From positions 7,724,157-7,788,156 of the forward strand of contig NC_084687.1 in NCBI RefSeq assembly GCF_028389875.1: a DNA stretch of 64,000 nucleotides, in the 5' to 3' direction. Origin of the DNA: Rhea pennata (lineage: Eukaryota; Chordata; Aves; Rheiformes; Rheidae). A model generated the notes under the pieces. That model was not told the origin of the DNA, ran no database searches, and saw nothing but the letters and a program-made list of their open reading frames with translations. Below are positions 27,221 through 52,857 of the stretch, in pieces. How positions within the stretch are numbered: the stretch's first letter is position 1; each line of letters opens with the position of its first letter. The translations under genes were made by a program, and so were the position numbers.

Positions 27221-27416
27221 CTCATTAAACCCTAAAGGATTAGTCAGCTGTTCCTTCAACCACAGAATTGTTAGGAAACATCTAAAGCTTGAAGTTATGT
27301 GGCTTGGAAAGTGATTTTCTAATACCCAAACTTCAAAGGAATTCTGAAATCCTGCAGCGTAAGGGAGACAGAGTAACATTAATCCACTGGAGCGCTGCTT
27401 AATGGCCTGTTTAATT
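27221..27416 (+). repeat. Diverged repeated element, copy A (upstream of MAGI3)
   Basis: This stretch is clearly related to 52652-52857 in the same orientation. Shared blocks in the same order include CTCATTAAA, AGGATTAG, AACCACAGAA, AGGAAA-A, TGAT/GATTTTC/TTTCC then CTAAT, a GAAGGAATT/AAAGGAATT core followed by AAATCCTG, AAGGGAGACAGAGT versus AAGAGAGAAAGAGT, ATTAATCC, and GCTTAATGGCCTGTTT versus GCTTAATGGCTTGTTT. Weaker similarity seems to extend about 60 bp further upstream in both. I do not recognise the family. It may be an old amniote mobile element kept for regulatory use. Confidence 0.7.
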
Positions 27417-27429
27417 TTTGTCTCGATAG

Positions 27430-28880
27430 GTCTTTAATAAGCAGCTAAGCATGAAGGCTGCCTCCGATAAGCCCCAGTCCAGCATTGCCTCCATGGGCAT
27501 ACCCCCTGGCCCTGCACGGCCTCCGGACAGCGCTGTCGCTTGGGCCGGCCATGCAGCTGAAACACCCCACGGCAGGTGCACGTGTCCCTGCACCATGCCT
27601 GCGGGTCACGCCTCTGCTGTAACCCAGCCCTGCATCAAGCCTGCTGCATGGTCGCGTCCTTGGGCAGGCAGAGGTGCCGCCGCGTCCCCACGGCCGAGCC
27701 CTCCTCGGCATCCATGTGGGAACCTGGCACCAGCCAGGCTTTGCACGGACAGCCCCGACGCGAATAAATAACGCTGTTAAGTCTGCAGTAATGAAGGGAC
27801 TGAACATGCACTGTTTTGAGAGCACAAAGCCCTGAAAGCTGCAGATTAATTAAGCTTCACAGGCCCTGTGAGATGCGGAGGTAATTGCAGTGTTCCTGGT
27901 GCACATGGGGAAATGGAGAAAGGGATCGGTTGTGGCCGTAGTGTCTCCATAGCGTGGTGGCAGCAGTGCAATGGGCATACCAGGCCCGGGACAGGAGCTT
28001 CCTCCTTGCCCACCTCCCACCTGGCTTTTGGGGAAACCAGGACAAATTCCCAGCGCCAGGAAAGGCGCTGGGACAGGGAGCCGTGCCGCGCCACACCGCG
28101 CTGGCTGCTGCAGCTGGCTCTGCCCCCAACGGTGCTGGCAGCTCCAGCACTGCAGAGTGAATCCCAGGTTTTCTGGCCACATCAGGGACAGTGATGTGTG
28201 GAGACCGCAGCCACGGCACTTGGCGAGCTAGATCGAGTAATGCATTCGGCAGCGTGTTGTCAGCTGAGAAATCTGTTAGTAGTAAAAATGCATGAGCAGC
28301 AGCGAGAGGACGTGAGTGTGTAATTGGCTGAGGGTGTCTGGGAGGACATCTGCTTTGCTGCCGCCCACGGGCCTTGCTGGAAGTGGCGACGGCAGCGCTG
28401 CGGGTGAGCACGGCGCCCGGGAACCCCTCGGCTCCGCGGGTAATTCCCGCAGCAGCCTTGCGGCAGGCTGCAGCAGCTTGCTGGGGCATGCTTTTTTGTC
28501 CTCTGCTTTTGGTGGGTCCTCAAGGTACTTCTGCATGTCCTTCCTGGGGCTGATTTTTATGCACCTGCAAACGGAGGGCGGCATGTTCTGCCGAGCAGCA
28601 AAGACTGTGGCAGCTCTCCAGCCTTATTTTTGGTAACAAATAGTGCCTAAAAGTCATCTGCAGGCCCTCTGCTAACAGGTCACTCTCTTTTCCTTTTTTC
28701 TTAGTGAAGCTGATTTTAAAAGCCTGATGCTGAAAAATGGAGAACCGGATACTCCACCACACTGTCTTTTGCAGTGAGTCGAGCCGAGCTGTGGAAGCTA
28801 AGAATTAGTATCTGTAGCATAAAATTTGGAGTCCATCAGCAAAGAAAGTCTCTGCTTTCTGAAAGGGAGATCAATTTTGA
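27430..28880. other. GC-rich spacer, nothing recognised
   Basis: Many overlapping frames of up to 210 codons on both strands; none recognisable. No RNA gene seen. Confidence 0.5.
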
Positions 28881-28889
28881 CATCTTGAT

Positions 28890-29260
28890 TATAAGTCAGA
28901 GGAAAGGTTGGTGCTGGACTAGTGATCTTTGAAGATTATTATTACATTGCCATTATTCATTAATGACTACAAAAGAAACAAGCTCTAAATGGTAATGATA
29001 AATTATAATCACAGACCTATGAAGCTGCTATTATATCCCATTTATTCTGAAAGAGTTTTTTACTATTAATAACAAAAAAATGGAGTATTAATAAGGCTTT
29101 GGCCTAGCATGCCATGTATTGCTATGTAAACACTGCCAAAGAAAAAAAATCTAGAAAAATCTATTTCTTTATGTTTCAAGCAACAATTACTTTTAAAAAT
29201 GAATTAAAATAGAACTTCATAATTATAGATGAGCTGCTTCTGGACCATGATCTAAATGCA
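28890..29260. promoter_or_regulatory. AT-rich enhancer-like block
   Basis: GATTATTATTACATTGCC, ATTATTCATTAATGAC, GGTAATGATAAATTATAATC, CATTTATTCTG and GAGTATTAATAAGG lie in 200 bp. There is no tandem repeat structure, and motif density is high. Confidence 0.33.
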
Positions 29261-30099
29261 CCTGGCCAACTAAGCAGCTCCAGGGCCGGAAGACATTTGG
29301 TGTCTTCTATCTCTGCTGTCTCTCGCCCCTGCACACCGCCTCCTTTTTAACTGAAACCGCTTTCGTGCAGCAGTTTGTAGTGACCTAGTCATTAGCAGCA
29401 TTTTTGTCTGTCTAGCAGGACTCACCAGAGAGAGGAAAGGGTAAAAAACAAAACAAAACACACACTTTAGAGGTAGGTGTCCTGCCAGTGCTCTTCGAGG
29501 AAGGTGACATTGGTAAATGACCTGTGAATCTGAGGGAACTTCTTAAAACACATCAAAACCCATCACTTCTGTTCTATGAATTGTGCTGCACAAATTGTGG
29601 TGTTACATGGCCCGTATGCTAGAGGATTTGGGCTTCTCACACCTCGAAGGGCATCCGTGACAGAGTCAGAGCAGCCCCAGGCCTGATTAGTCCTGTTTTA
29701 TTCCTCCACACAAGCTCATCCATCACCTTAGTTTCAAGTCATTGCATTTTATCATTGAAAATAATTGAAGAGTAGATGGAGAAACCCAATCTGAGAATTG
29801 AACAAGGTGCAATGGAAAGGTCACAACTTACTTCTTGGTTAATGGATCGTCAGCCATTACATCTCCACAGTGGCCATGGAAAATAAGGAAAGATTTTGTT
29901 TCTCAAGCTGTCCTGGTGGTCCCTTTTCCACCCTTTCCCACCATCTTATGTTCCTGCAGTTTGCTGAGAAGTGAAACAGAGAGGCCAAAAATCTTTTTGC
30001 AGATCTCTTCTGTATCCTCAGTGTATTTTTTGTCAAGTTCTCAATCTTCAATAGGGCCTGGATGGCCCCTCCCTTAAGGTGAAGTCTGCTCTGTCAGCC

Positions 30100-30560
30100 T
30101 GCTTGTTTGATTTCTTGTACTGAAATGTAAATTAGCTGAAACTCACTGTAAGAAGCTTATTTCAATATGAGCTGTAATTACTGCTAGGGCTGTGAAAAAG
30201 CTTTCTTTAAAAGTTTTATCAAAGTTATTCTGTGTTATTATTGCTTTCTGTGATGTGTCTGGATTTACCAAACAGCAAATAATTCTGCACTTATCTTGGT
30301 TCCTTTGATAATATTTTTTATGACAGATCTACTGAGACTCTACATTATTAACATTAAAAAAAGGAAGAATGGGGACAGTCTTTTCTAAATAAGTCTGTAA
30401 AAAACCTTGCATGCCATTGCTGCTGCTTAAATACTAATCATGGAAAGACAAGAAATGTATTAACCATATGGCTTTGTTCTGATTAATATAGGGAGATATG
30501 AATTATTAGGATGCTAGGAATAACCAGCACAGCCAGCGCTCCTCAGTGAGGCAAGGCTTA
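30100..30560. promoter_or_regulatory. AT-rich enhancer-like block
   Basis: GAGCTGTAATTACTGC, TTTTATCAAAG (TCF/LEF-like), CAAATAATTCTGC, CATTATTAACATT and GATTAATATAGGG occur close together. A small CpG-rich patch (30630-30750) with a CCCCCGGAACGGGGG hairpin follows directly. Confidence 0.3.
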
Positions 30561-30809
30561 TTTGCTCAAAAGCTGCTTTCTGAGACATTAGTGCAGGTGG
30601 AAGAGCTCCTCAAGATGACCAAGCCGGGCAAGGGTACAATCGCAGCTACGGAAGAGGGTGACCATATCTGAAGTGTCCCCTTCGGCCACGAGGGAATGAC
30701 CCCCGGAACGGGGGCTTGCAGACGGGCCGTAGTCGAGGCAGTAGTTCCCCTTCCAGATGAAGAAGAGGCAAATGGGGAAGAGAGAAACGTTTTTCTGGTC
30801 CCGACTATT

Positions 30810-33580
30810 ACTCATTGCTCCTTCTTCACTCTATTTTTTAGAAATAAAACTGACAGTGTGTTGATGCAGCCTAGCCCCGCTCTCTTCTTTCAAGAGGAAC
30901 AGTGTGATGGGAGAGGGCCAGGCTGGGCATGTCACCACCCCACCGCTGGCTCAAATCCAGCTGTGTTACTGTATTAGAAAGAGCTTGTTCCTGAAAGACC
31001 AGAGCAGACTGTAATATTGCCTTTAAATACCTGTAGGACTGCCAGGGCCTGAAGCACAGAAGGCAAAGATTTATCCGAGTGAGCAAGTGCTCTCAAGAAA
31101 CCATGTTTTCCTTCTGCAGCATGCAAGGCAGGCAGACTACGTACGCAGAGGGAGTGTTGAAGCCCTGGTCTGCACAGCTGGTCTGCTCCCCTGCACACCG
31201 GTTCCCTGCTCCCTGTACCAGCGAGGAGAGAGAAAGCAACAGGGGAAAAGTATCAGGAACCGTACTCGGAAAGGAGCTGGAGATTACATTTATCAGGCAG
31301 AGGTTGGGATCGGCTTTTGGGCCATGTGAGCCAGCCCAAATCCCCGTGAACAGGACTAGAAACCTTGACAAGGCTGCTAGAAATATTTCAGATCCCATTA
31401 AAGATGTAAAACCACTGGCAGAGCTGAACCGCTTATGGATGCTAACCGAGCTTCTAGTGAGGTAGGCTGACGCCAAGGAGAAGGTTCAAGCAAGGGATTT
31501 TCGTCAGTGATTATCAGAAACGCACTCAAATAGAGAGAAATGACTGAATTCACAAACATGGCAGAACGTGGTAAAAACAACAGCCTTTTGCTGTTATGAT
31601 AAACAGCATGTCTATGTGCTAAGTACATGTCTAAGTAATGTACTTGCTAGTCAAAGTTTGGTTTGGTTTAGAGGCAATGTTTGCAACAGGTGGTTGTGTT
31701 CCTACGGGTGGTTACAGATTCACAGACTGGAAGGCCTCCTTCCAGCGCACGAGCAGACAAACCAGGCAAGCCTAGCTTGACAGAGGAAAAGACAAACCAG
31801 TTTCTTGCTTCTCAGACTGGCTTGTTTGAATCAAAATGTACTTCCTGAGCTTGCAGTAGCCTGAACAGTGCAGCAGGCGGAAATGTCGTGAAGAGCAGCA
31901 ATCTGTCTCAGCAAACCAAGCCTACTCCGGGCTTTGGAAATATTGAGACCTGAGGGCACGTGCTGCAAACTGCATGCATTGGCACTGTGCCAGTGCCCCG
32001 TATCCGAGGCAGAGTTGTTCTCCCAGCCTGTGACATCCACGAACAAGGTTTTGCCCGCTATTGACAGCACGTGACAGGATTCAGGAGATGTGATACACCC
32101 TCAGAAGGCGCCAGCACCCCAGGAAGGTGCAGATAACTGCTGATGTAGTAGTAGAGGGGCGTGCAAGCTGGCGACGCGAGGAGAGCCTCATGGCTCCTAA
32201 TGAAATAGCTCCCGTGCCTCTGCGCGGCAAAGGGAACATCTCCCCTCTGTGATGCAGGAGGGGGAGCACCAAATACCTGATTAAATCTGTGAGTACCCAG
32301 ATGACTTTTAGGAGCAGCCCATCATTATGACTGCCTGCAAACACCTCTGTGGCCCTGCTGCACTTGCTGCTTTACTGACATGATATGTCACCCCCTGCTT
32401 TTTTCCCAGAGTCCTATCAGAGCAACCCACTGGTTTTCTCCAGCACAAAGCACCAAGCTCTAGATCCATACGTAAATGCTCCACTACTACTTTTGGCTCT
32501 AAATCCAGTATGCAGACTTCAAACCCCTGCTTAGATGTGAGTCTGTACAACTTTCTCAGTTCGCTGTTTGCCTGGCCTTTATCCTCGCTCCCTGTTCATT
32601 GGCGTCCACAGTGCTTGATCGCATTGCTCTGAAGGCCTTTAATGTGCATCCCAGGATGAGCAGCTGAGGGGTATTTGTGTAGGCTGCTTCTTTATTCACT
32701 TTTACAAGTCTTCTTAGCTCATCTTTTTTAACTCTGTTACAGAGAAAGCTACAGCAGCAGTTCACCACTCTTCTAGCAGGCATATGTGAAGCAATCTCTA
32801 CAGTTAGCTATTTTTTCTGTTTTTGAAGTTTGGACTCTTCAGGGAGAGCTGCATAGGAAACAGCAAAGTGCTTGTGAGTGTATTACTGAGTTCTGTGTCC
32901 ATGTCTGCACTACAGTTGTTGACAGAAAGTATTTCGCCTCTTCCAGCAATTCCTGCCTCACTTGTAGTTCTCCCTGTGCCAGGTCTGTGCTAGACTGCAG
33001 GTGGCTAAACACTGCTCTAATGGCACAGAGCACATACAAAGCTGGCCGGGAGCAGACTCCTCGGCCGTCCAAGCATTTTACCTGTAGGAGATACCTGTGC
33101 CAGGTGAACCAGCCAACCCTGCCCTGACAGCTACTGTTTTTTTTTTTTTTTTTTTTTTCATGTTCCCCATAACAGACATTTGCCCATACACAGCCCCCTT
33201 CATGGAGGTTTCTTACAATTTAATAAGTGTTAATTTAAATAAATTTGTGGTGTTTCAGAGAAGAAATATTGTAGAATGTGCAGTTGGGAAGTTGAGGAGT
33301 ACAGAGGATCTGACGTGAATTAATTTACAGTAAAGCCTTGGCCAAAACGTAGATAATTCCCAGACTAATGCTGCTGCTGTTTGAAAAATTTACATGATTA
33401 TTTATGAGAAGCATCCGAACACCTATTGTATGCAATGGTCACTAATTAATATTTGCAATGCTTAAGGATGTTTTCTTTTTACTTGCAGAGGGGAGGCAGA
33501 GAGAAGAGAGAGGGACACAATACTGCATGAATCCTATTCTTGCTGGTGCTGCCTGGTGTTTGCAGGCTGTGTAGAGGTGT
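30810..33580. other. Non-coding spacer, nothing recognised
   Basis: Frames up to 128 codons on either strand without recognisable domains. A T22 tract lies at 33137-33158. Confidence 0.5.
33137..33158. repeat. T22 homopolymer
   Basis: Uninterrupted run of 22 thymines; no adjoining retroelement recognised. Confidence 0.95.
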
Positions 33581-33594
33581 GTACTAAATATACA

Positions 33595-33725
33595 GAGATT
33601 TATAGAGCAGTTTTGTATCTGTGAAGCACTTTTTGATACTGATCTACAGCCTGTTGGGGCTGATGCGTTTTCCATTCCCAGGTGAGGATTCCAGACACCG
33701 AGGCTTAGTCAACCCAAGCTGACAT
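33595..33725 (+). repeat. Old SINE-like (MIR/L2-type) fragment
   Basis: TGTATCTGTGAAGCACTTTTTGATACTG resembles the AAAGC(A/G)CTTTGAGAT segment found in several old amniote SINE tails. CCATTCCCAGGTGAGGATTCC-GAGGC-TTAGTCAACCCAAG, 70 bp later, follows the MIR order CCATTTTACAGATGAGGAAACTGAGGC-TTAAGTGACTTGCCCAAGG. The match is diverged and assigned by eye. Confidence 0.38.
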
Positions 33726-33729
33726 AGAT

Positions 33730-35780
33730 CTCTATTAAGTCTTGGGTTTATTCTCTAAGCTTTTCTGGAGCTTGATGAAATCCCCTGGTAAAATCTTCTT
33801 GCTGGCAGCTCCTGCTCCAGTACAAGCAAATTTATGATGTGTTTAAAAGTTTGCTTTCAGATAACTGTATCCTAGGGGCACACAATTTTCAAATAGGCAA
33901 TCTTGGATATGTCTGTCCAGAGAATAGCAAGTGTGTGGCTTTGAACCACTCTTATGTAACAGTGATTTGTTTAGACTTCTTTAGAGACACCTCGCTTACT
34001 GAGTAAATTGCTATCCCATCTCTGAGATGAATGGTCCTGTCCAGGAGGACTGTTTTGCCTGCCACTCCTCTCTGAAAACGCTTCCTTTGAGCAGTTTTGG
34101 TTTCAGTTGGTACAATGGAGTCAAATATCGCTGCTGGTTCTCACAAAAGTTTTAACAGCATTACGGTCAGATAGTATTGTTGTGGGACAGTCCAAGCTCC
34201 TGGAAACCCAGTCCCTGTGAGGTTAGAGAATAACAAATTTCTATGTATTGCTCTTACTGGGGAAACTTGCTTTCATTTTCTTCTTGCTGAGCATGCAATG
34301 GTTCTTATCTTGTGTACGTGTGTTGTATGAGTATTTAGCTCTGTCTGGACCCCTCAAACACAGGACTGATGAGCTACATGTACCACATACAAGCATTGCA
34401 AGTGCACTAGGAGAATAGCTTCATGGCAATCCAGGCATAACACCACAATTCCCCTTTTTGTCCTCCCTGTGAAAGTGTCTCCACACAGTAACTGAACAGC
34501 AGTCTGACGTGTTTTTGCTGTTCTGATTGCCTTTGAACTTTGGCAGTGTCATAAACAAACTTTGCTTCACCACCTACCGAGCAGTTGCACTGTCCTGAAC
34601 CAGTTTCTCCCTTTAGTTCCGGTCTGCAGGGGCTTGGCAGCTTCTTTTCATGAGATCTGTTTGTGTTGAATGCCAACAGCAGAGAGGGGTGGCAGCTGCC
34701 ACAGCATGATGTGTGATGAGGATGTGATGGGGATGCTGCAACACCAACATTTCTTTGATGGCCCTTTTAGCTCGCTGAGATTTCAAGCATGTGTGGTCGG
34801 ACAGTAAACATCCAATTTTTCATACGTCTGCAGACCAGGGCTGGTGGCGGCGCAGGACGCGTTCCGCTGGTTGCTGGGAGGTGGCGCAGATACTTTACGT
34901 GTTTGTGAACGGTGGTGAGTAATCAGAGGGGAAGAAGGAATGCAGAATGAACATACTTGCTGTCAGCATGGCATAAATCAGAATTAAAATTGTCAGTTCC
35001 AGGCAGTTTGTTCATGTTTCAAAGTTTAGCTCTAGTTCTGTAATGAATAAATTCAGGAAGCAAATGTCACATGCACAAAGCATAAAATAGAGGGCCATCA
35101 TGGAAATGGGTTTGTTGAGGCCATTGACCTTTATTAAGATTCTGGACGCTGTCTTTACTGATACCTATGAGAAGAATAAAGCTTTTGCTTAACAATAATT
35201 TAGATTCACTGAATTATTTTGGATTTCACAGAGGTATTAGCTTCTGCTAGGAACTCATTCCCTGAACACCTTGGATGGAAGATTTCTTCAAAGATGACAA
35301 AAACTGACACAAACCCTGGAAATACTAGACCAACCAGTCTGCTCTGCACCTTGTGCTTTTAGTTTTGAAAATGCCTGGGTTGGTTTAATTTCCTGCAGTG
35401 GAGACAAGTGGATGAGGCCAAAGACTTTGGTGTATATGTGGCTAATGAGTTTTTTTAGTGTATCACAACATGTGGCAGTTTGCAAACAAGCTGGAAGTCG
35501 TAAGTGACAATATAGAAATCTTTATGTATTTAAGTTAGTATGGGAAGCTCTTTAAATATCTCCCTAGAGTCAGTATTGCCAGCTCTTTTAATGTGCATTG
35601 TTTTTCTAAAATCCTTAGGTCATGTGAGTGGAGTACCCTGGAAAATCAGAAGGGTTTTCATATTTATCAAATATCAACCCATCGTGGCTGTAGAGATAAA
35701 CTTGCAATTGTGAATCCTAATGTTAAAAAAAGAAGAGAAGGGACAGAGTAGATGCTAAATTGACCATTTTCTTATATGAC
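33730..35780. other. Non-coding spacer, nothing recognised
   Basis: Moderately AT-rich, with no frame above 90 codons. No repeat, RNA gene or promoter signal recognised. Confidence 0.55.
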
Positions 35781-35815
35781 GTATACATATATATTTATTT
35801 ATATATATATATATG
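35781..35815. repeat. (TA)n-rich tract
   Basis: GTATACATATATATTTATTTA followed by about eight TA units. An interrupted dinucleotide repeat. Confidence 0.9.
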
Positions 35816-36014
35816 TAGCTGTTTATATACGTACAACCACATCAGTCCAGGACTTAGGGTGTTAACATGGGAATAGTTGGCACTGCTCCAGCGTCAGCAG
35901 TTCATGTGCCTGTGAACAGAAAGGGGGAGCAGGACACCAAGAACGAAGCCTTCCGGCACGGCTGAATGGTGGGATCCCTGCGAGACTGAATGCTCACAGC
36001 CTCAAGATAAGGTA

Positions 36015-36180
36015 CAGCAAGATGAATAATTTAAGTATAACTCCACAGAAAAATGATCTGAGAGTCGTTGTAGATATCCCAGCCAAAGCCTTTCCTACGA
36101 GGCTATGGTGAGCGAAAGGCTAAACAAAATCTTAGGAAGGTCTGGAGCTGTGTAGGGAAAAAGACATCTAGAAATTGCCC
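36015..36180 (+). repeat. Ancient CR1/L3-type LINE fragment (3' end of ORF2)
   Basis: GAAAAATGATCTGAGAGTCGTTGTAGAT corresponds to the CR1 reverse-transcriptase end that reads AGATCTTGGGGTC(A/G)T(G/T)GTGGAT, encoding DLGVxVD. GAGGCTATGGTGAGCGAAAGGCTAAACAAAATCTTAGGAAGGTCTGGAGCTGTGTAGGG then follows the CR1 order TGTGGCAAAAAGGGCTAATGCGATCCTTGGATGCATAAACAGGGG. Divergence is high, so it is an old relic; reading frames are broken by stops. Similar to slowly evolving sauropsid CR1 lineages as I recall them. Confidence 0.5.
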
Positions 36181-36840
36181 ATATAGCAAAGTTTTCCACA
36201 GAGACGACAGAGCAAGCACCCAGGGAAAGGTGACAGCCACTCAAATACCCTCTGCTTCCACCGGTGTGGGAGGAAAGGCGGGAACCCGCCTCTGTGGCAA
36301 GAACTAATGTCTGAGGCATGGGCACATTTCTTAAGTGAAGAGACCAGGAGCGCGGAGGGAAGAACTGCAGTCCTGCACATGGGACAAGAGGCGTTAAGTG
36401 TTTTGGGGCAAGGAGAGCCAAAGCCCCTCTGTGTTTTATTCTGCATTTTAGCAGCAGAATAAGGCAGGTCCCGTGGCGCACAATGTGCTGGGCGGATGGG
36501 CTGCCCCAAAGCAGTGCTGTGCGGTGGGCTGGGTTACCTGGCCCCCAGCCACATCTGCCCTGCAGGGTGCACTATCCCCAGCAGAAGTGACACCAGGGGC
36601 TCCGGGCCCCGGGAGGGGCCTGCAAGTTGTGGTCACCATCTGAGCGAGGCTTTGCGGAGATGTTTAGTCTTCACATTGTGCTAGTGCTTCTGCACCCCCC
36701 TGGTACTGAAGAGGAGACAAGTGGTTAGTGAACAGTGCTGAGAAAATACGTCTGACATGTTAATTCTCTGCCAGAATACAACGATGAAACCGAAAGGTAA
36801 ACGTGCCGCTCCCGAAGAGGATCGTTACTCCGTACAGAGC

Positions 36841-36925
36841 ACAATTAACCTGGGCAACTTACTGGCATGAGGCACTGCGGAGGTGAGGAGCTTAATAAAA
36901 TTTACAACGGATTAGACAGCTTTTG
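36841..36925 (+). repeat. Ancient CR1/L3-type LINE fragment (further 3' piece)
   Basis: GGCAACTTACTGGCATGAGG...AGGTGAGGAGCTTAATAAAATTTACAACGGATTAGACAGC mirrors the known CR1 3' segment GGAACTCACTGCCACAGGATGTCAT-GAGGCCAAGAGCTTAGCAAGATTTAAAAAGG-ATTAGACA. Same strand and correct order relative to the fragment about 700 bp upstream, so both may be parts of one insertion; the GC-rich DNA between is not recognisable as CR1. Confidence 0.5.
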
Positions 36926-36929
36926 TTGG

Positions 36930-38430: not shown

Positions 38431-38520
38431 GCATGTGCCCTGCACCTGGCAGCGCGCTCAACTGCCGCCCGCCCGGCCGCGGCGCTCGAACCCGCGCCGG
38501 GGCAGCCGCGCCCCGGTCCG

Positions 38521-38751
38521 AGCCCCGCCGCTGGCCCGAGCCCCGCCCCTGACGCGCGAGCCCCGCCCCTGACGCGCGAGCCCCGCCCCTGACGCGCGAG
38601 CCCCGCCCCTGACGCGCGAGCCCCGCCCCTGACGCGCGAGCCCCGCCCCTGACGCGCGAGCCCCGCCCCTGACGCGCGAGCCCCGCCCCTGACGCGCGAG
38701 CCCCGCCCCTGACGCGCGAGCCCCGCCCCTGACGCGCGAGCCCCGCCCCGC
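38521..38751. repeat. Perfect 20-bp GC-box minisatellite in the MAGI3 promoter (10 copies)
   Basis: The unit CCCCGCCCCTGACGCGCGAG is repeated ten times without a single mismatch from 38541 to 38740. It is flanked by one degenerate copy on the left (38521-38540) and a partial copy on the right (38741-38749). Each unit carries a GC box (CCCCGCCCC, Sp1/KLF type) and a TGACG half-site of the CRE type. The absence of divergence between copies implies recent expansion or homogenisation, so copy number is probably variable between individuals. Long open frames on both strands here arise only because the unit lacks stop codons. Confidence 0.95.
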
Positions 38752-38909: not shown

Positions 38910-38982
38910 ACGCCGCCGCGCCGAGGGCGGCAGTCGGGCGGCAGCCGCGGCCGGTGCGGGAGGCGGCCGGCGGCGGCGCCCC

Positions 38983-39314
38983 ATGGTGCGGTATGTCCAA
39001 GACGCTGCGGAAGAAGCGGCACTGGCTGAGCAAGGTGCAGGAGTGCGTGGTGTCCTGGGGCGGCCCGGCGGGCCCCGACCCCGACCTGCTGCGCGGCGGC
39101 GCCGAGCGCGGCGAGTTCCCCTACCTGGCGGGGCGCCTGGCGCTCGGCGGCGAGGGCGCGCCGGGCCCCGCGCTGCTCTCGGGCAAGGCGCCGGCGCCGG
39201 GCGACGTGCTGCTGGAGGTGAACGGCACGCCGGTGAGCGGCCTCACGCACCGCGACACGCTGGCCGTCATCCGCCACTTCAGGGAGCCCGTGCGCCTCAA
39301 GACCGTGCGCCCAG
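38983..39314 (+). other. Out-of-frame upstream AUG overlapping MAGI3 exon 1
   Basis: An ATG at 38983 lies 10 nt before the MAGI3 ATG and in another frame. Its frame stays open through the whole exon; the genomic stop at 39316-39318 is beyond the donor, so in spliced mRNA the frame would continue into exon 2. Context: the upstream ATG has C at -3 and G at +4; the MAGI3 ATG has G at -3 and T at +4. If transcription starts upstream of 38983, ribosomes would need leaky scanning to reach the main start. The encoded peptide is Arg/Ala-rich and is not expected to be functional. Confidence 0.6.
38993..39314 (+). CDS. MAGI3: MAGI3 first coding exon (membrane-associated guanylate kinase, WW and PDZ domain-containing 3), partial gene
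   Basis: MAGI proteins are scaffolds at tight junctions and other cell contacts; MAGI3 is known to bind PTEN and various receptors through its PDZ domains. The exon encodes 107 residues plus one base of the next codon. It opens with [17 protein letters not shown], followed by [11 protein letters not shown] (residues 35-45) and the PDZ segment [15 protein letters not shown] (70-84) and [19 protein letters not shown] (87-105). These match remembered human MAGI3 closely. MAGI1 begins MSKVIQKKNHW and MAGI2 MSKSLKKKSHW, so MAGI3 is the better fit. The guanylate kinase-like, WW and later PDZ domains must lie in exons beyond the window. The frame stays open upstream to an ATG at 38759, but the family start is MSK, so 38993 is chosen. 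The exon ends CCAG|GTGAGC, phase 1, within the glycine codon that follows KTVKP in the human protein. The loop before GDVLLEV is Gly/Ala/Pro-rich, as expected from extreme local GC. Confidence 0.93.
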
Positions 39315-39320: not shown

Positions 39321-42300
39321 CGCCGCCGCAGGCCGCGCCGCCCGCCCGCCGCGCGGTAGGCCCGGCCGCGCGGGCCCTGCGGGAGGGCCGCGGCGCGCGG
39401 CGCGGCGCGGCGCGGCGGGAAGTTACCTCAGGGCGGGCGGCGCGCGGCGGCCGTTACGGCGCGGCCGCGCCCCCCGCCCCCCGCGGCGGTAACGGTCGCG
39501 GCGGCGCTGCCCCACGCAGCCTGCCGCGACCCGGCGCTGCCCGGCGCGCCGGAGCCGCCTGCCGTCACCCGCAGCCCCTCGCGTGCGGGGGGGGGCGGGG
39601 TCGCGTGTCTGTGGTGGGGGTCGCGTGTCTGTGGGCGACGTCTGGCCCCGCCGCTGCTGCCATCGACTGGAGCGCCCGCAGCTGAAGTGCTGTTCGGGGG
39701 TTTGCCAGGGTGTTTGCACGAGCCGCTTCGGAGCGGGTGAATCCAAAGCGTTGAGCAGTCACGCGTGAGGGGAATGGGAACGTGTTTTGTAGGAATATGC
39801 TTGGAAAACTAGGAGATTGCCAGGAATTGGAGCAAATGCCAAAAAGACTCATTTTTTTTCCATAGATCTGTATTAATTTTGAGTACACCTTAATTAACTA
39901 ACAAAACAAATCACTGTGGTAAAACCAACATGCTTTTCAAAAGTGAAGTTAACACTGAATTGTGATACCTGCATTTCACATGGGCTAGCGATTCCATGTA
40001 GTACAGCTGGCCTCAGATTTAATGCTTTCCAAGTCAGCATGTTCCAGGTGAGCGTGATACATTTTAAAGAAACTCTCTTTAAAACCTTTTTTTCCTCTGA
40101 ATCCCAAACTAGTATCAGTACTTTCATGACTGACATCTGTAATATTTCTTACATCTTCCTTGTTTAGCACCTATTTTCCTTTTACTTACTTAACTACTGG
40201 GCTGTATGGATTTGCCTTAGTACGTATCTTAATTATGTCAGGTTTTCCTCTTTTGACTGCTAATGAAAAATCATCTTCTGTATAGAGAGTGAGCTCTCAA
40301 AGTCCTGATGTATATCACCTGTGAAAACCTCTTAACAGCATCTACAGAAGCCTAGTAGGCTTTGAAAGATGCTTTAACTTCCAAAATTGGAAAATAGAAG
40401 AGAACACAAGCTGCTGCAAGCTAAATGTGAAATGAATGGGAGGTGAAAAAAGTTGAGGAACAAACTGTTTAAGATATAAAACAATAATAGAAACTTTCTG
40501 AGAAAGGGAAAGCACATGGAAGATGAAACCATAGTAAGAAGACCAAATCAATTTTATGTATGTTTAGTTGGGAGGGAAATATGGAAAGGCCCAGTGTAGG
40601 AATATCCCTAAGAGAGGAAAGTCTCAACACTTCAAATTAAAACTGTCAGGAAAGATTTTAGAACTAATTGGTACAATGAATAGTAGCAGATTGGCAGATT
40701 CAGGTGGCTGATATTTGTTAGGAGTTTTAGAGACTTAAGTATGAGGTGCTAAAATACTTTAACTGTAGCATTTAAAGTATTTTTATATCATCTTTGGTAT
40801 GGAAGAGATAGAAGGTAGGAAGTATGGTGCTAGGTTAAAAAGGGGGTTGGGATCTGAAAGGAATCAACGGGACTGATACCTGATTCCAGCAGTTTGTTTA
40901 AAGAACAAAACTACTGTGTGCTCAACTGAGTATCAGGTAAGGAGAGTTAGTGTTGCTGTTGTGGAGGAAAGCATGTTAGAATTCTTTGAAGGTTCGCCAG
41001 TTGCTTTCATCAAATCCAAATAATTTGGTTTATTTGGATCTTCAAATAGACTTTCAACAAGGTACCAATACAATTTGAATAAGAGGTCTCACCAAATGTT
41101 CTGGTGGCAGTGTAGTTGCTTAAAGTGGTGAATTTTCCTGTGGATTAGTGACTGGTTAAAATTTGTAAGGCTCCAATAGTAGCTTCCTTCTGTTGAGAAA
41201 ACTATTCATAAAGATCTGCATTATTCAAGTCATATGGATTTATAAACTGAACACTGTCATATTACTATTTATTATTGATAATACAAAATATTTAGGGCAT
41301 TGAAAACTAAATTAACAGCAAATAATTACAGAATGAACTCTGAACTGGAAGAGGTGAAGAGAAGCAAGGAGGACAATCAGAAATACAGCACACTGCTGAT
41401 AGGAGAAGAGATTAATAGTTTGTAGCTTGTAGGTCTGGGGAGTAAACAAATGAGGACATGGCTGGGGGAATAAGATGGAGGTCTAAATGACTTGGAAAGC
41501 AGATGAATAAAGAGTAATTACTGATTCTTCCAGTACAAGACAGGTGCTGCTTTGTGAAGTTATCAGACTGCAGATTTAAAATAAAATATACTTTGTGGAG
41601 TTTGCTTTTCAGAAGCATAGACTTCTGAAATGTGATTAGGTGGATTGGCGTGGGCTGGGTTTGCTGGTTGTTGTACAGTGTTGCTAGATGCAACCCTGAA
41701 CTCAAAAGCATGTAGCAGCAGATTGCTGGGAGCCTGTGTCATGGGAATGATTGCTCTATCCATTGCTTCTTGCTCATGGTCTTTCCTTTCCCCTGATATT
41801 TATTACTGCCAGGCTCGAAGACGGGAGATTTACTAGAGAGAGATTTAAGTTCTGGTTTACTTTCTATTGAATTCTGTTTGCAAAACATACCCTTTAACAT
41901 CCTCCAAAAGCTGAGGAACAGAAATGAATCTTGGAATGTTTATTGTTTGCATCTTGTTCACAGCACTGTTGAACCCTTCATTTTTGGAAAGTCAAAATCT
42001 TTTGATCACGATGAGCCTTCACCAAATTCTTTATTCTTTTCCAATATTTCCTATATTACCAGTGGCATGAAAAGGTGTTGGACTATTTTGCTGATGATGG
42101 GGAGGCTGTTCTTTTACAGCTGAGGTGCTTATGCTTAATGCCTTATTTTGTTGAAGGTGTGACTGATAATGGCAAAACTTGCATATGGCAGAGAACATTA
42201 GCTAGTTCAATTGTAATTTGAGCTGTAAAAAGCTAGCATACTAATTTTGTATAACTTTTGGAACATACGAAATTCAAGCTTCAGTTTGAGTAGTTTCCCT

Positions 42301-43728
42301 CTGCTAAAATATATTGCAAGTTTATCAGATTTTTTTTACAGTAACTTACTGTGTTAGGCTTATAATGTGCTTAAATACAGTGTTTTAAAGCTTTTTTGCA
42401 TTAATGCCACAGTTGCATTCAGTGGAAGTATTTCAGCTAGGGTATCTATAATTAAGAAAGTTGCTGGCAAGACATTCTATGTAAAGATGTGTAACTTTGA
42501 ATTTGACTTCCCTTCTATCCCTTGTGATCCAGAATAATCCAGATTTACATGCGTCTTCAGGGCTGCATTCCAAAGGTCAGTATTTGTGTAAGTGTTTATG
42601 ATGAAATGAGTAAGATCTGTGGAGGTGGGGATCTGTGATACCCTTACAGTATGTCTAAATTCTCAGACTCTTCAGTTGTTGGTTACTGATTTTTTAATGC
42701 GCTGTTTCATATTACTTTCTTCTCTAGTCATGCAAACACACAAAAAAAACTCAGCTATCTTACAAGTTAGGCTCTGTATTAAAAGGAAGAGAATGCCTTT
42801 GTTAGTAGGCCTTAGTGTACCTGATGGCTCATCAATTTTGAGTGCTCTTAGGACAGAATCCTGAGGATATACCATGTTCTGCTGTTTTTCACTTGACAAT
42901 GAGGAACTTGTCACCTTGTCTTTCGATGTTAGTATGTTTATAAGGCCTTGATGCTCATTGTCTACCTCTGTGATTCAGGCAATACAACTTCTGTGTTTAA
43001 GACCCAGTTTCGTCTTTGAGGTAAAGTCTACTGCAGGTGTTCCAGTGGCTTTTGACAATATATCAGTAGACTAGATGTGCTTTATTTCAAGCAGTGGTGT
43101 CCTTAGAGATAGCAGCTTTAGTTGATAGCAGTGAAGTCTGTCTGTGATGCTTCTAACAAGCTTGTAGTGGATTTAAAATGGAAATTTCAAGATGCTGTTT
43201 AGTCTTGTTTGATAAGACACTTGAAAGATATGAATACTAATTTGAATGCCATCTGTTAACTTCACATCACAAATCATGGACCATTTTGTTGATGTAAAAA
43301 TTTGTTCTTCTCTTTCCTTACTCTATTTTTATTTGCTGAGGAGAATAAGATTTATATGCCACAGGCTCAGGTGTAGTATCTATCAGTGCAGAGTCAGTCA
43401 TAGCCGTTCTTCTGTCTGAGGTCTAATTCAGGTATGTACAGGCTAGTTCTATGCTTTTTAGTTCTGGTATTGGAAGTAGCCTAATTCTGACAGTAGAGGC
43501 CAAGGCAGCAAAATCTGCAGGAAGCTAAGTTTCAACACAGGTTGTTAATGGCTATGCTAAACTCTCTCTCAACATGCCTAAACTGATGTTGAGATCTGAG
43601 CTGTCTACATAAGTAAAGTCAAATATTTCTAGGTTTCCTTCAAGTCAGTGATTAAAATTATAACCATACTTTTATTTTTGTGTAATTAATCATCTTGATT
43701 GGATAAGAAAAATAGCAATGCGGAGAAA

Positions 43729-43746
43729 TAGTGTGTGTGTGTGTGT
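43729..43746. repeat. Short (GT)n tract in MAGI3 intron 1
   Basis: About nine GT units followed by an interrupted ATGTGTCTGTGCATGC tail. Confidence 0.9.
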
Positions 43747-44084
43747 ATGTGTCTGTGCATGCATAATAGCATATGTCAGTACTTCCTAATGCAGTGCACG
43801 TGTATTTTAGCCAGATTTGTTAAACGGTGCTTTCAAGCTCCTCACCTGGGTATATGCATTCAAATGATGGCTGGTGTAGCTCAAGGCTTTCAATGTCTGA
43901 TGTTACTTGGGTAAGTAACATAAGCTTTGTAACTAGCTGGTACTTCTCCTGGTTCTTCTATTAAGGAAAACTTAGAGCATTTTGTTTATAGTAAGTTAAG
44001 CTGTCTTTCTGAGCACCAAGTTCATCCTATAAATGTACCTTCTACTCATATGGTATTCAAATTTAGCTACCCCCTCCCAGCTCC

Positions 44085-44130
44085 CCTCACCCCCCCACCC
44101 CCCCAAAAAAAAAAAAAAAAAAAGAGAGAG
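44085..44130. repeat. Poly-C / poly-A / GA low-complexity tract
   Basis: CACCCCCCCACCCCCCC is followed by a run of about 19 A and then a short GA repeat. Simple sequence only. Confidence 0.9.
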
Positions 44131-45926
44131 ATGTGAAGATGAACCTACCTGTATCCAAACGGATGTGGAGCTGAATTTCTGGGCACCATGATAGATTTTT
44201 CTTTTTTGAGTTAATATCTTTCACTAAATCGTTTAAATCTTCTTGAGACTTAAGAATTTTGAAAACAGTATCTTAGATGCATCTATATCTTAGCAATGTT
44301 CTCTGAAGATCAAAATCTAGTACAAATTTACCAAAAGACCATAAGACAATTCAGAGATATTGCTGGATACACTTTCTCTTATCACTATGGAATTGCATAG
44401 TAGTAACTAGTCCATAAAGTGCCCACTATCAAAAAGAGTTAATAGGTATGTTTAAAAGCCAGCTTAAGCCAGCTTGTGCATGGGGGTCCTTTCTCTGAAG
44501 AAGAATGTATGAAAACAAGGATGACAAACACAGTGACTCAAACCAGGATCAGCACTTGAGACATAGTACTTGAAGCTGAGTATATAAGAATCATTTACAT
44601 TTTCTTTTGTGCTTGAGCTAGGTTCAAAGCTTCCATGGGGGGTAAATATTTGCATGTTTGGCAATGAAGCCAGAGAGGAGGGCACACAGCACTAGAGGCT
44701 GTTTTTGTAAAATCTGACTAATTCTAAATGTGCCATGTTAAAACAGAGATCAGAATACACATCAGGATAATTTTGCCTCTCTGAGGAAAGACATTACCCT
44801 AATTCGATGTTTCTCAGAAAGCTGGCAGTGGGCCAGCTCAGTGATTAAGCAGACTGTTACCCTTAGTTGGAGGAAGTTTGAGGAGCTGAGGAAGTCAGCT
44901 CAAGTCCTTAAGTTGCTGATATGCATTAGGTGGTGGGCTTCTGGATGCTGGCTTCGAAAGCTTTCCTTCCTCTTTGAGAGTACAGTAGTTATTGATCCAT
45001 TTTTAATCAAAACATGGAAATGGTGATTCACTTTACCACACTAAAGAGAAAACATTGAAGGTTGCTTGCATTCTTAAATCTGTAAGTTATCCCAGACTAA
45101 TGAAACTAGACAGAAGACAGATGATTATTGAGAAGGAATAATGAACAGGAAACACTTTTTACTGCACACACTCATTTCTTCAGAGCATCTGAGATAGCAA
45201 TGTTATGTCATATAGCAATTTGTTAGAACTACCTTGCATAAAAAGCTATGAGATTGCTTCTCGGATGTGTGGGTACAGAGGACTATCAAGCACTTGCCAA
45301 TGAATGGAGTCTTAGTATGTGTCTATAATTTGTCATCTTGTTTCCTCATGCTAATCTTTACATAAACATATTATTCTTGGCATTAGACATATCGTCATTC
45401 CCTTTCGCATACTTCTTCGTTTAAATTTTAGTTGGTGAGTATTGTGTACATGATTTGACCATAAATGCCCTTTAATTATTCCATTCTTTCATAGCATCAG
45501 CTGATCTCAAAATGATAACAAGGGATCCTGCACCTTCTGCCACTGTGCTGCTTCACTCTGTGGCTTTAATTTGTACTTTTTTGTTCACTTTGAGAGATGT
45601 TCTCTTCCCTGTACCATTCACTGATGACATTTCTCAGGAGAGATCCAGTAGAATAGCACAACATAAGACCTACAATTTATTTAGACCTGGCAGCAGACCA
45701 TGCAGTACAGTCAATGTTCCTCTGGTTGGCCAGATTCCAAAACCACCTCTTCCATGTGTCTCTGTCCTGTTTTAGGTGGATGAAATTTCAGTAGTATTGA
45801 AAGAGCAAACACTTGAGTACAAGTGTAAGTATTCCAGTTGTTCCTGGAAGGAAGTTTTCTCATTCAGGTAGAATATTTTATCTTTAAATTAAAGTCTTAT
45901 ATATGTGCTTATATTTCTTGCAATGA

Positions 45927-45958
45927 GGCAATTTTTTTTTTTAAAAAAAAAAATTGCC
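45927..45958. repeat. Perfect 32-bp palindrome GGCAA-T11-A11-TTGCC
   Basis: Sixteen-base arms meet with no spacer and no mismatch. The flanks do not continue the symmetry. T-run to A-run junctions of this kind are stiff, nucleosome-disfavouring DNA. Confidence 0.9.
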
Positions 45959-48079
45959 AGTTAAAGCTTATATGCCAGCAAAAAGCTAAATTTAAAATCC
46001 TAAAACTGTGTCACATTTTGCCACTACTCTGCAAAGGCAGGAGGTTTTACTTTCCACATGAATGAAGCCAAGAATGAAATAAAATATGAACCCTTATTAG
46101 AAGCCATAACTTTGGCCACAGTTTCTTCATAACCTTTGTCTTAAGTATTGCTTTGTTCTTGGCTGTCTTTAACAAAGCTTGAATGTCACTTGTAGAAAAT
46201 GACTGTTTCCTTATTCTTTTCAGAATATTTAATTTCAGATGTTTTAAAGTTGTATTTTGCTTTTAGAAAATGCACTTTGAAACTTTCTAGAAGTCATAAA
46301 ATAAACTGCTTCTATATCTTGCTGTATACTATGGTACTTCAATGTAACACCTACTTCAAGACATTTTTTAGCTGATATTCCATACCAAAATTTTAAAATA
46401 TAACAAGAATTTCCCATTCAAATTGACAGCTGACAAAGGTACTCTAGTTTTAATTATTGCTCTCTTTTAAGGTCTTTAAATTCATTCTTCTAGCTCTTGT
46501 TTTTAATTAATAATGTTTCCTTTTAAGAATTCTCATATTCATGGGCTGTTACTTAAATCATCTATTCTGTTCCCAGAGTGGAAACAGTTTTCTTTAAAGC
46601 AATAGTATTCTTAAGAATAACAGATTTTGATTAAGAAATATGTGAGCTCTTGAGTGTAAATTCCTCTACTCTTGAGGAATACTCTTATTCAGTACTGAAG
46701 AGAAAGTGAGGGTAAAATGTAGTAGGAATATTGCAGGCTTGTACTGATCTCTTCTGCCTGTCTTAGAAACCAGAATCCTAAGCGATTCATCTCAATTGCT
46801 GTTTGTCTTTGAATCTATGTTGAATTTATCTTTTTCGGACTCAGTGGGTCATAGTGGGAATGAGAACCGCTCCCTGGTGATGTACTAGCAGTAGCTGAAT
46901 AGGTTGGGGTGGCTTCCAAGCCCCGATCAGTTTTAAGAGCAAGAGCGTATCCTTTCAGTGGAAGGAGGAGTATGCCAGAGAAGGTGTTTGTCTATATAAT
47001 ATCAAGGAGACTGTCTAGGCATTACTGGAGAAAAAGAAATTCCTGCTGTGGATGCAGCAAGTCCAAGGACACTGTGAGGCTTATGTTAATTTTTTTCATA
47101 TTGGCTACTAAAATCTATGAACAGCTGCCGCTCTTTGAAATGCGAATGTTGGTGATTGCATATAACTATGTTCTGTGATTAGTCCAGTTTAAATATAAAA
47201 TAAAATCATGATCATTTTATGTTCACACTTAATGTCATTATGCTCTTTCGTCATATACAAATGCAATGTGTGAAAGTAATCTTGTGTAGAAATGCAATTT
47301 CATTTGTAAAGTGCACCAAGGTTGCCAGATATAACACTGGACTTCCTCTGACAGCATGTTTTTGTAGCTACCTGCAAAAACACTTGCTTAAAACTTTGTG
47401 TCAAGATGTATGTCGTTTTATAAATGTAATTGTTGATGAACTGTTGGCTGCTTTCTAGTGAGTGTAACTCTTTCAAATTGAAAATTATTAGTGTTTATTA
47501 TTAGTCCTGCATTACTTTCACTTTCTGAACAGCAGTCTCACTTGTATGGATTGCTCCACTGTAAATTATTTTAATGAAATATATAAATAGAACAGTTAAT
47601 TCCTTTAAGCTCTGGATCACTCTATCTTTCAGTTATCTGTAGCAAATTGACATATTAATTGTAAAACATAAATTCTAACTCTATCAGATCATGATTCTTT
47701 CTCGTTATGTTCTACTTCAGTGCGGTTTCATTACTGACTTGGTAATGAATACAATCAGATTGTAACAGCTGGTGTCATGAATATGGATTGTAGATGCTAT
47801 ATAAATATTGGAAGTACTGTATTCTATTTTTTGCAGTACAGCTGTCTAGAAATGCGTTATTTCTTTATGAAGGAATATCATACAGATAGATGATAGTCAA
47901 CAAGGTTAATGTGATCTTTTTGCGAGTTATCTACTACTAAAGTTGTCTTTTCTCAGATCTGTTGTGTTTGGAAATGGAGAAAATGTTGTCTTAAAAATGC
48001 AAAGTAATATTCTAACATGAGAACCAAAACCTTAACACAATAATTGCATTGCATTTGTACAAAAATAGGTTTATTTAGT

Positions 48080-48190
48080 AAGGCTGGGACCCATTTAGTC
48101 TAACACTGGCTACCACTAGATGCTTTAGAAGAAGCCAGTAGGAATAAACTTTTCTGTACCGGAGAACTCTTGTGTGAAACCTCAGTAGTT
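48080..48190 (+). repeat. Old interspersed repeat fragment (sauropsid CR1/SINE-like)
   Basis: GGGACCCATTTAGTCTAACACTGGCTACCACTAGATGCTTTAGAAGAAG resembles a motif common in sauropsid interspersed repeats, GGGCCCATCTAGTCCAG-ATCCTG...CAGTGGCCA--ACCAGATGCTTCAGAGGAAG, in order. The following GGAATAAACTTTTCTGTACC could be the diverged continuation. Family assigned from memory only. Confidence 0.35.
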
Positions 48191-50015
48191 AATTATAACG
48201 CTATCCATGTTGCAGGTTAATTATGCTGCAAGTGTCGAAGCTGACATTTGCAGGCCAGGCTGGGTCTAGTAGGGAACATGGAAGATGCAAGTAACAAGCT
48301 AGTATCAGTCTTCTGCAAATAATGTTACACAGTATTTTCAGTATAACCATTTACCTCCTCTGAGATAATACAGAAGCAAAAGAGCTGCAAAGAAAATGAT
48401 CTACAGCCTGAAAAAGCTCTTACAAAATGAGACAGAAGCCTGGGATTGCTTGGATCATGAAGGAAACAACTAAGAGGGATGATAAAGAGTGTGCAAAAAT
48501 AGTATAGAAGATGATTAGGAATTTTTCTTGTCTTGCAACACAAAAATATAAGGAGTTAAATGAAAGTAAATAATAACAGGAAATGTTTTTTTTTCAGGCA
48601 TGGGTAATGTGACAAGAAAAGACACTGAAGTCGAGAGTTCAGCAAAATTCAGTAATTGGGCTTTACCTAAGCCTTTGCAGTATTCACTATTTTATTGGCA
48701 TGTATGAGCCAATTAAGAATTGTGTACTAAAAGACATAGGTGTTTAATTTTTTTGATCTCTGTATATCTTGCCACTTGTTTACTCTCCAAAGTGGAGACA
48801 TTGGAACACTTCTCTCATGCTGTGTGTTATTTAAAACTCTTTTGGTGGGCTAGGTAGGCATTACACATACACACAGATCTTCAAGGGTAAAATTCTAATC
48901 TTGAAGTGCATTCAGTTCAGGTCAGAGCATGGAGGGGAATGAGTGCAGTCTACTTCTGGCTGTGTAAATGTTTTAAAACTTAATCCTCAAATCTCAGAGT
49001 ACCCTTGACATTTCCATCAAACTTGCCAGAAAACATTATAGCCACAAACACCCATACACCACTAGATTTCACTCGCATTTCTCAGTGGGGACCTGGAAGT
49101 CCTCCATCTATGACTATGCATCTCTGTCCAGGACTGAAGAGCATGGAAGTCTTAAAGGGTGTGAGGACAAGTTTGTCAGGGAAATCTTTAAAGTAACTCA
49201 CTAGAATATCTGCAGCCACCTCACAGATGCCTGCCTCTGTAGCTGACACTGTGCAGGTGGCCAGGAGGAAGCCACATGTGAGCGTTACTGGAATATTCTG
49301 TAATTGCTGGTGTGGTGGAGTGGTGCAGTACACCTGCATGCTTGCAGATGGCTGCAACCACATGGGGGTATCGGTGTGCTCTTCAGACTCAACTCCTGTG
49401 AGGCCTCAAATGTTTGCTTCACATAGTGAAGTTTTTATTTCTCTGTTCTGATGCACCTAGCAACTCTTCAAGTGTGACATTTGACACAGGTGCAACAAAT
49501 GTATTTCTGAACATGTGCATCTAATTCAGTATTAGAAAAGCACTGCACCTTCCCATGCAAGTTGATAATATATTGTAGTAGTAGTGTACTAGGGTACTTC
49601 AATGGCATGTGATGACCTTGTTCAAAGACCACTGCAACTACTCCTGTAAAGAGGATAACTGCATAATATGGGACAACATGGGTGTTTCCAGGGTTGATTT
49701 ATTAAGTTAATAACATTTTTAAAGAAGGATTTTTTTCCTTGAAAGTGATCACTGAACAAAATGCATGTCATTTTAAAAATGCACTTGGAAAACATGAGTC
49801 TTTGACATGAGTGGTTTTCTCCATCTTAGTAGTAAGCCATTCTTGGCTTGCAGATTTATAACATTCAGAAGCTGTCTGTGTACTGTTATGGGTTGACATA
49901 AAAATACCTTCCAAGTCTTCATCGTAAGATACGTTATAGACTAGAGACCAGACCTTGTAGACATTTAAAAGAATAACCAATCTTCTGCCTTCTTCCCTCC
50001 CCCCAGGGGTAAGGG

Positions 50016-50051
50016 AAAAAAAAAAAAAAAGAAGAAGAAGAAGAAAAAAAA
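50016..50051. repeat. A15 plus (GAA)n tract
   Basis: A run of 15 A is followed by about six GAA units and more A. It is a polypurine tract able in principle to form a triplex. Confidence 0.9.
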
Positions 50052-52651
50052 CTTTTTCTTAAGCCTAGGTATTAGACCTTTTGCTACTTTCAGGTAAAAT
50101 TATGAATAAAGATTTGATTTATTGGAAATAAAAATGAATGGTTTGTATGTTCCAGTTTTGCTTAATTTCTGGTAACCAAATACAGTTTGAAGTATACAAA
50201 ACCTTCCGGATTTTGTAAGCTATGGAGGGCACTTAAGACTGTTTTGAATTTTAACATATGAGTGAGGAAGTCTGTGCAGTCATCTGCCAGGAATTGTACT
50301 GAAAAATGGCCATGGCTACTTAGTGGTATAGCCTGTATGTGCTAGCTTTGAGTGTAGAGATATAAAAGCATTTATTGAATGCTTAGTTTCTTTCTACTGA
50401 AATGCCCCTAATGCCTTTGCCAGAGGATTTTGCTGAAATGTTTTGGGAGAAACTCATTTCCTTTGGACTGGAATTGTTTAACAGTTATATTTTGAGAGCA
50501 TTTTAGTGGTTGTTTGCTGTTACGTTTTGGGATTCAAACTGTGTCCCTTCTATTGAGGACTGTGTTAGTATGCGGGAGAGAACTTAGCATATGATTCAAG
50601 ATCCGTTTTGCCAGGCAGGGCTCATCTGTTGGCCCTTTGAAAAGGGTTCATTGGCATTCATGTGTTCTATGGGCAGAGTCAGGCGTGACAGTGTTTGGGA
50701 AAGAGACTGGTGTAATGACTAGCCTTGGGCCTTGCCTGTGGGAGTCTGTGGCTGCTGATTTTCTCCTAAAACGTTCTAGAATCCCCTTCAGCCATGGCAT
50801 AAGGCTGTGGTCTTGGCTCATCCTTCCCTTGCTTTGGAAGAGGTGTTAGCACATAGTATGGGGATCTTTAGAAGAACTGGGAGGGTAGGAGCATGAATGG
50901 TAGGTTTCTGGGTGCAGAGCTAAGTATTTTGAGAAACACCACCTTGAGATGAGAGATAACAAATAGCTCTCCCCCCTCCAGGGTCCTTGCTTAATACCAA
51001 AGCTGAATGCTGGCAGATCTAAAATGCTGTCAGAGTGCTATTTCAGCAGATGCCATTATGGAGGTGGGAGTGGCACGTAGTAAAATATGCAGCAGTTTTA
51101 TGCTTAGCTAGAAGAAACATGTTTAAAAAAAATCTTTCATCTTGATTAAAGAACAGATGAGACAAAATTCCATCTGAAGTAGCTGCCTAATTACTGCTTG
51201 ATATGGTGATGTAGTTTTTCAAATTAAGCTGTTAGTGGAAATAATTTTAGGGCAGAAAGTGCTTTTTGCTTTAAAGCACTTACAAGTTGTTTGTGTATGT
51301 AGGTTCTTAGTTGTTTTCCAGTGTCAGTGTCACTGAGTCTAGTATAGCAAAGTTAAGCCCATGTTTAATCTGTCTGCTTTTCTTAAATGTATTTTGTGAA
51401 CACCATAGAGGTCACTTGGGTGTTCTCAGTCTTCACTGACCATAAATCGTGTACTTGTCCTCCAGAGTCTCTGTAACTGAGAGAGGCTGCCCAACCTGTA
51501 GTGTCTGAGCAATAAGATTTTGGTGAGGAAACTTAAAATAAGGGCTAAGATATTTGAACCTGCATCAGTGCAAATAAGTAGCTCTTATAGTAAGTGCAAG
51601 TACTTTTTTCTTAGCTTATGAAATCAAGCTACTGGGTGGAACCAGATTGCTAAACCAGTTTTATTTCCCTTTATCCTAAGGAAAAAACTTAGTGTAAAGC
51701 ACAAGAAAATTATTCTTGTAAGTCTGAAAATAAACTTCCTATGGTGATTAAGTCAAGTAAAAATTACAGAGAAATAAGTGAGGCAGCTGATACACAAATC
51801 TGAAAAAAAAATGTGCTTTTGTGTTTTTAACAAAATCAAAGATAAAATGAAGTATAAATGCTTTTTAGATGGTTAGATAGTTTGCTGCCTAATTTAGTAT
51901 AGAAAGTCTCTTTAAAGTCTGTTGGTTATTTGCTCTAGTTATAGCCACTCTTTAAACAAAGGATTTTACGTAGTGTTTTGCACAAGCATTTTAGATTCAG
52001 GAAAAAGAGATGCATAAAAGGTGAGTAGTGTCCGAAGTAAAACTTTAATGAGTCTGAATAAGAAAATCACTTTCTTAAATCAAAACAAAAAGCAAAAGCT
52101 CATGCCTCAATGTCAATTTTCCTTTTCCTTGCAAGTCCCTCTAAAAGATTACGGCAAAAATATGGCTGAAATAGTAATGAGGGCCATTTTATTGTTTGGC
52201 ACATTTATGTTTGCACAGCTGGTGTCCTACCAGCTTTATCCTGCAGCTGAATAAGGAAATGTATGCATATATGTATGTTATTTCTTCTGCTCCTGACATT
52301 ATTTAAGAAAAAACAAAAACAAATAATTTGAAGTCAATGTAGCTTGTTTAACATGCTGATGAAGTATTTCTTCCTGTGTTAAGTGACTTGTATTAAAAAT
52401 AAAAAATAAAAAAAAAAAGAAAGAAAAAGTCAAGGACATAGGCGAATTGTTAAATTGCTTTGACACAATTTTTGCTTAAGTGAAAAATAACAACAGAAAA
52501 CATCCAAACCCAAAATACTGAAGCCTTCTCCTGTGTTTAAGATTTCATTGCCAGTATATGGAACTTTGTTTTGATTATGTGCCAAGTTTACAGTGACCTT
52601 CTTCCAAGCTGAAGGTTTGCTAATAAACAGAAACAGAGTTTGCTGGTACTA

Positions 52652-52857
52652 CTCATTAAATCCAAGAGGATTAGCATCCAGTTTATTTCCTCTGAAACCA
52701 CAGAACTATCAGGAAATAACTAAACCCTAAAGTTTTAGATCTGTAGAAATGATTTCCTCCTAATGCATGTATTTTGAAGGAATTTCAAAATCCTGTTATG
52801 TAAGAGAGAAAGAGTTCTATATTAATCCTGTGGAATGATGCTTAATGGCTTGTTTTA
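52652..52857 (+). repeat. Diverged repeated element, copy B (inside MAGI3 intron 1)
   Basis: Partner of copy A at 27221-27416, same orientation and colinear over about 200 bp with small gaps; by eye roughly two thirds of positions agree. Neither copy has an open frame, tail or terminal repeat that would name a family. A colinear match of this length at this divergence implies common descent. Confidence 0.7.

Follow-up and report, generated by a model that had tools for sequence, protein, structure and literature searches.

The MAGI3 locus of Rhea pennata raises the question of how two similar non-coding stretches of about 200 bp came to lie on either side of one promoter, and what role they may have there. 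The window analyzed is a continuous stretch of 64,000 nucleotides (contig NC_084687.1, 7,724,157 to 7,788,156), and the two stretches, here called copy A (27221-27416, 196 bp) and copy B (52652-52857, 206 bp), both lie on the + strand and share one orientation, at a distance of 25.4 kb from each other. Reading of both segments bore out the coordinates and the shared orientation given in the original prediction, as well as the common 3′ end that it had described, TGCTTAATGGC(C/T)TGTTT, which is present in A and B alike. Local alignment of the copies gave 148 identical bases among 190 aligned, with 42 mismatches and 20 gap positions, for a score of 444, compared with a mean of 117 and a maximum of 186 among 1000 dinucleotide-shuffled pairs and with a best score of 212 for either copy against the remaining window. 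The likeness therefore goes beyond shared AT-richness, and a score at the level of shuffled sequence, the outcome that had been named as counting against the pair, was not what was found. When the window was compared with itself by BLAST, the A/B pair had an E of 3e-20 and was outscored by only two rows, both GC-rich and both inside 38.4-39.7 kb, around the MAGI3 CpG island. A and B are confirmed as same-strand homologues.

The promoter between them is placed by the first coding exon of MAGI3, which includes the start of the first PDZ domain and lies on the + strand at 38993-39310 (end approximate), as judged from translation and from a PDZ match with E 7.9e-5. We take the open frame from the ATG at 38993 to be MAGI3 exon 1 from its likeness to MAGI3, with which the PDZ match fits. 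Copy A ends 11.6 kb upstream of this ATG. Copy B, which starts 13.7 kb downstream of the ATG, lies some 13.3 kb inside intron 1 given the approximate exon end, and the claimed placement on both sides of the promoter stands. What was duplicated looks non-coding, as had also been claimed. In copy B each of the six frames is interrupted by stops, and copy A has one open minus-strand frame of 65 codons with no Pfam match, which rules against a coding origin. In the whole window there were 76 stop-to-stop frames of at least 110 aa, and 8 large ones among them, scanned against Pfam, gave no match. An RNA gene was also rejected, with no hits to Rfam at the gathering threshold and none by ARAGORN in the window, and with fold z values of -0.8 to -1.4 that are not unusual.

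The extent of the duplicated unit bears on how it was copied. BLAST aligned 27200-27451 with 52631-52899, i.e. 20-40 bp past the ends given above, and homology is lost just outside this unit of about 200 bp. Flanks of 100 bp aligned no better than shuffles (scores as high in 63/200 on the left and 25/200 on the right), and the same was true of flanks of 300 bp (93/200 and 63/200). Longer flanks, of 1 kb and of 3 kb, did score above most shuffles (4/200 and 2/200 as high for 1 kb, 0/40 and 2/40 for 3 kb), with alignments that were off-register. An alternative explanation could be a larger tandem duplication, of tens of kilobases of the MAGI3 5′ region, in which only a constrained element is still recognizable. 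A duplicated unit of 25 kb would be compatible with both the spacing and the shared orientation. The scores of the longer flanks, though off-register, would also fit such an event, as would a pair of GT repeats at 13568-13690 and 43700-43823 in the same order and orientation (E 4e-4, soft-masked). However, this would not account for the shuffle-level flanks of 100-300 bp, and the GT pair is removed by hard masking, while its non-repeat sides are at shuffle level (158/2000 and 87/2000). When window positions 1-38000 were compared with the 70 kb running downstream from 40001, with simple sequence hard-masked, the A/B pair had an E of 2e-20 and the next best match an E of 0.06, with no second significant upstream-to-intron match. 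The larger tandem duplication was rejected for lack of a second colinear pair in this comparison, and we regard it as very improbable.

Whether the two copies are alone in the genome decides much between a local event and a mobile one. All 1,268,942,789 bases (1.27 Gb) in 180 contigs were scanned with four block patterns and with reversed patterns as controls. The patterns were built from positions common to A and B, and recovery of both copies was hence expected; with 0 mismatches, all four matched at A and B only. Allowing mismatches, the middle block (up to three) still matched only A and B, with no control matches, and the 3′ block (up to three) matched one further place, against none for its control. 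The 5′ block (up to two) added 19 places against 23 for the control, and the AACCACAGAA block (up to three) added 8 against 8, so that the four patterns together gave 28 mismatched places beyond A and B, compared with 31 for the reversed controls. At the 15 of these 28 that were inspected (the single 3′ place, 6 of the 19 5′ places and all 8 AACCACAGAA places) there was no extension along the element; the 13 left uninspected all derive from the 5′ block with two mismatches. A profile aligned around the inspected seeds covered at most 54 bases and scored at most 11.8 bits, compared with at most 3.2 bits for reversed copies of the same loci. The best of these places (L044 on contig C8) had an E of 0.0039, which passes the nhmmer inclusion threshold; as the places had been chosen by pattern, scores of up to 11.8 bits are to be expected.

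The reach of the scan was computed with gaps ignored: the first three patterns jointly would recover 0.58 of copies at 20% divergence and 0.125 at 30%, where the 3′ block by itself would recover 0.05 and the middle block 0.03, and most copies would be lost if they were more than about 25-30% diverged or had gaps within a block. Within 264 kb, an nhmmer search with an hmmbuild profile of A and B found only these two above threshold, the next best having an E of 0.37. A whole-genome search in DNA mode, with A, with B and with the last 61 bp around the B end, returned only the query and missed the known second copy, and is hence uninformative; a scan of viral contigs with the 3′ block gave no matches, which says little. 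Self-comparison of 264 contiguous kb with hard masking gave 149 matches at E ≤1e-4, only four of which had GC below 0.62, namely the A/B pair and three matches from a single three-copy repeat. The three-copy repeat lies downstream of the window, at contig positions 7816210-7816615, 7840184-7840592 and 7890574-7890768, and is presumably of CR1 type.

The exact matches at A and B only, together with the failure of the inspected places to extend, make a large dispersed family unlikely and a local duplication in cis the best reading. A dispersed mobile family of SINE, MITE or UCON-like kind found no support, the many copies at unrelated loci that it implies not having been found in the four block scans. 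Judged within the reach of these scans, a family of hundreds of copies is unlikely, and a few strongly decayed relatives may exist. The check for many genome-wide matches proposed in the original prediction thus came out, within that reach, as two copies at this locus only and as no support for a large dispersed family. A narrower form of mobile origin is an ancient relic of the UCON, Eulor, MER121 or LF-SINE kind, nearly all other copies of which have decayed while A and B were retained. The unit length of about 200 bp and the limited extent fit this, and the median consensus length among ancient conserved repeat families is about 238 bp according to PMC3500645. A look for terminal inverted repeats gave weak inverted symmetry inside each copy, reached by 18/500 shuffles for B, 39/500 for A and 8/500 for A against inverted B; the ends of B read CATTAA...GGATTA and TAATCC...TTAATG. 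Neither a tRNA or 5S head (ARAGORN 0 and Rfam 0 in the window) nor a coding remnant (Pfam 0 for the open frame of A) was found. MITE-type elements need neither. Against a relic, none of the 15 places inspected, out of 28 with mismatches in the four scans, was a third copy extending along the element, and 100 copies at 30% divergence would be expected to give about 8 matches to the 3′ and middle blocks, gaps ignored, compared with the one seen, which did not extend. It would moreover be a coincidence if the two sole survivors shared one orientation and lay within 25 kb of each other. We consider a relic unlikely. Local duplication in cis is well supported as the probable origin of the pair, since the detectable copies are two in number, share their orientation and are separated by 25.4 kb; the chance of two copies landing at random with such spacing and orientation is about 2e-5 by an idealized sum.

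What a locally duplicated element might do is suggested by the blocks that the copies share, all read on the + strand. The 5′ block, CATTAAAYCCNARAGGATTAG, with a GGATTA core, is at 27223-27243 in A and 52654-52674 in B, and is followed by AACCACAGAA...AGGAAA...CTAAA, which carries AACCACA, at 27258-27286 and 52696-52724. The middle block, AAGGAATT...AAATCCTG...GTAAGRGAGA, is at 27336-27368 and 52777-52809, and the 3′ block, ATTAATCC..TGGA..G.TGCTTAATGG, at 27378-27405 and 52821-52848, has a TAATCC core that is inverted relative to the GGATTA of the 5′ block. We take GGATTA/TAATCC to be sites of K50 homeodomain type and AACCACA to be RUNX-like. In both copies the same aligned places are taken by GGATTA, close to the start, and by TAATCC, close to the end, and 4 of the window's 25 GGATTA/TAATCC sites fall in the 402 bp of A and B combined, an enrichment noticed post hoc. 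AACCACA occurs five times on the + strand of the window, two of these in A and B. The richness in homeodomain-type motifs that had been proposed was also found, with ATTA and TAAT together occurring 7 times in A and 6 times in B compared with about 2 per 200 bp windowwide. Given these motifs at matching places in A and B, the element most likely functions as a transcription-factor-binding module.

The reading we prefer, with a probability of about one half, is that A and B are products of a single old local duplication of a non-coding transcription-factor-binding module of about 200 bp, and act as partly redundant distal enhancers. An element of this size would have been copied once, long ago and intrachromosomally, at the MAGI3 locus; its GGATTA and TAATCC sites of K50-homeodomain type, its RUNX-like AACCACA and its ATTA sites would make up the module; and the upstream and intron-1 copies would both loop to the MAGI3 promoter. 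We infer that the sites may bind transcription factors, that either copy may have an enhancer role with MAGI3 as its target, and that both may have been selectively retained. Of the two origins offered by the original prediction, an old mobile family or an enhancer duplicated in cis, the genome scan supports the local duplication and not a large mobile family, while a duplicated or shadow enhancer is plausible but unproven, the identities between the copies showing no significant clustering.

A strong rival, which we hold to be quite possible without preferring it, is neutral local duplication, in which repair with template switching, for instance, placed a copy of a piece of about 200 bp at a distance of 25 kb, and the two have drifted ever since with no regulation of MAGI3. 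The K2P distance between A and B is 0.27, with 27 transitions compared with 15 other substitutions and with many small gaps, a pattern that could arise in a neutral duplicate. A K2P of 0.27 corresponds to about 60-70 million years at an avian neutral rate. No significant clustering of conserved columns was seen (p 0.54 by the longest run, 0.33 by the sum of squares and 0.08 by blocks of at least 8), and the shuffle-level flanks of 100-300 bp are as expected for a short copied patch. On the other hand, such a pair is uncommon here, A and B being the sole one in 264 kb (GC below 0.62, E ≤1e-4) besides the three-copy repeat, and the paired GGATTA and TAATCC are enriched, if post hoc, at conserved places; neither point is decisive.

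Within the enhancer reading, a more specific and more tentative proposal is that the cis-duplicated enhancer of about 200 bp has been long held in both copies on either side of one promoter, as a homologous shadow pair with convergent K50-homeodomain sites, GGATTA...TAATCC, close to its ends, buffering MAGI3 expression in birds. If both copies are active, they would constitute a sequence-homologous duplicated enhancer flanking one promoter, and the origin of shadow enhancers by plain local duplication would become directly testable. If the pair is neutral, it provides a bird-genome example of a short dispersed duplication, datable from the genomes of other birds.

Several known systems resemble the pair in part. 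Shadow enhancers, like A and B, are a pair of elements so positioned that both could act on a single promoter; they are defined by activity, whereas A and B are defined here by sequence, and they need not be sequence homologues. Duplicated or paralogous conserved non-coding elements (dCNEs) are likewise short, homologous non-coding pairs near a gene and are thought to be regulatory. As described in a portion of PMC4008492, however, paralogous elements sit beside paralogous genes, whereas A and B are both beside one gene. The ancient conserved repeats described in Repbase (UCON, Eulor, MER121, LF-SINE and AmnSINE1) share with A and B a diverged, AT-rich, non-coding unit of about 200 bp, to judge from a section of PMC5753468, but they are dispersed families, while only two copies of the present element were found, 25 kb apart. 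For segmentally duplicated regulatory elements (PMC13333887), duplication is considered apart from transposition, as it is here, but the title of that paper concerns human-specific rewiring. Among titles, abstract beginnings and passages of the open-licence literature, no description of the A/B pair at MAGI3 was found.

Two tandem arrays were observed close to the MAGI3 exon that lies between the copies. Just upstream of exon 1, at 38519-38749 in the promoter region, there is a minisatellite of 11.6 head-to-tail copies (98% match) of the 20-bp unit CGAGCCCCGCCCCTGACGCG, which presumably bears a GC-box. Just 3′ of exon 1, at 39597-39634, there is a short tandem of GGGGTCGCGTGTCTGTGGTG in 1.9 identical copies.
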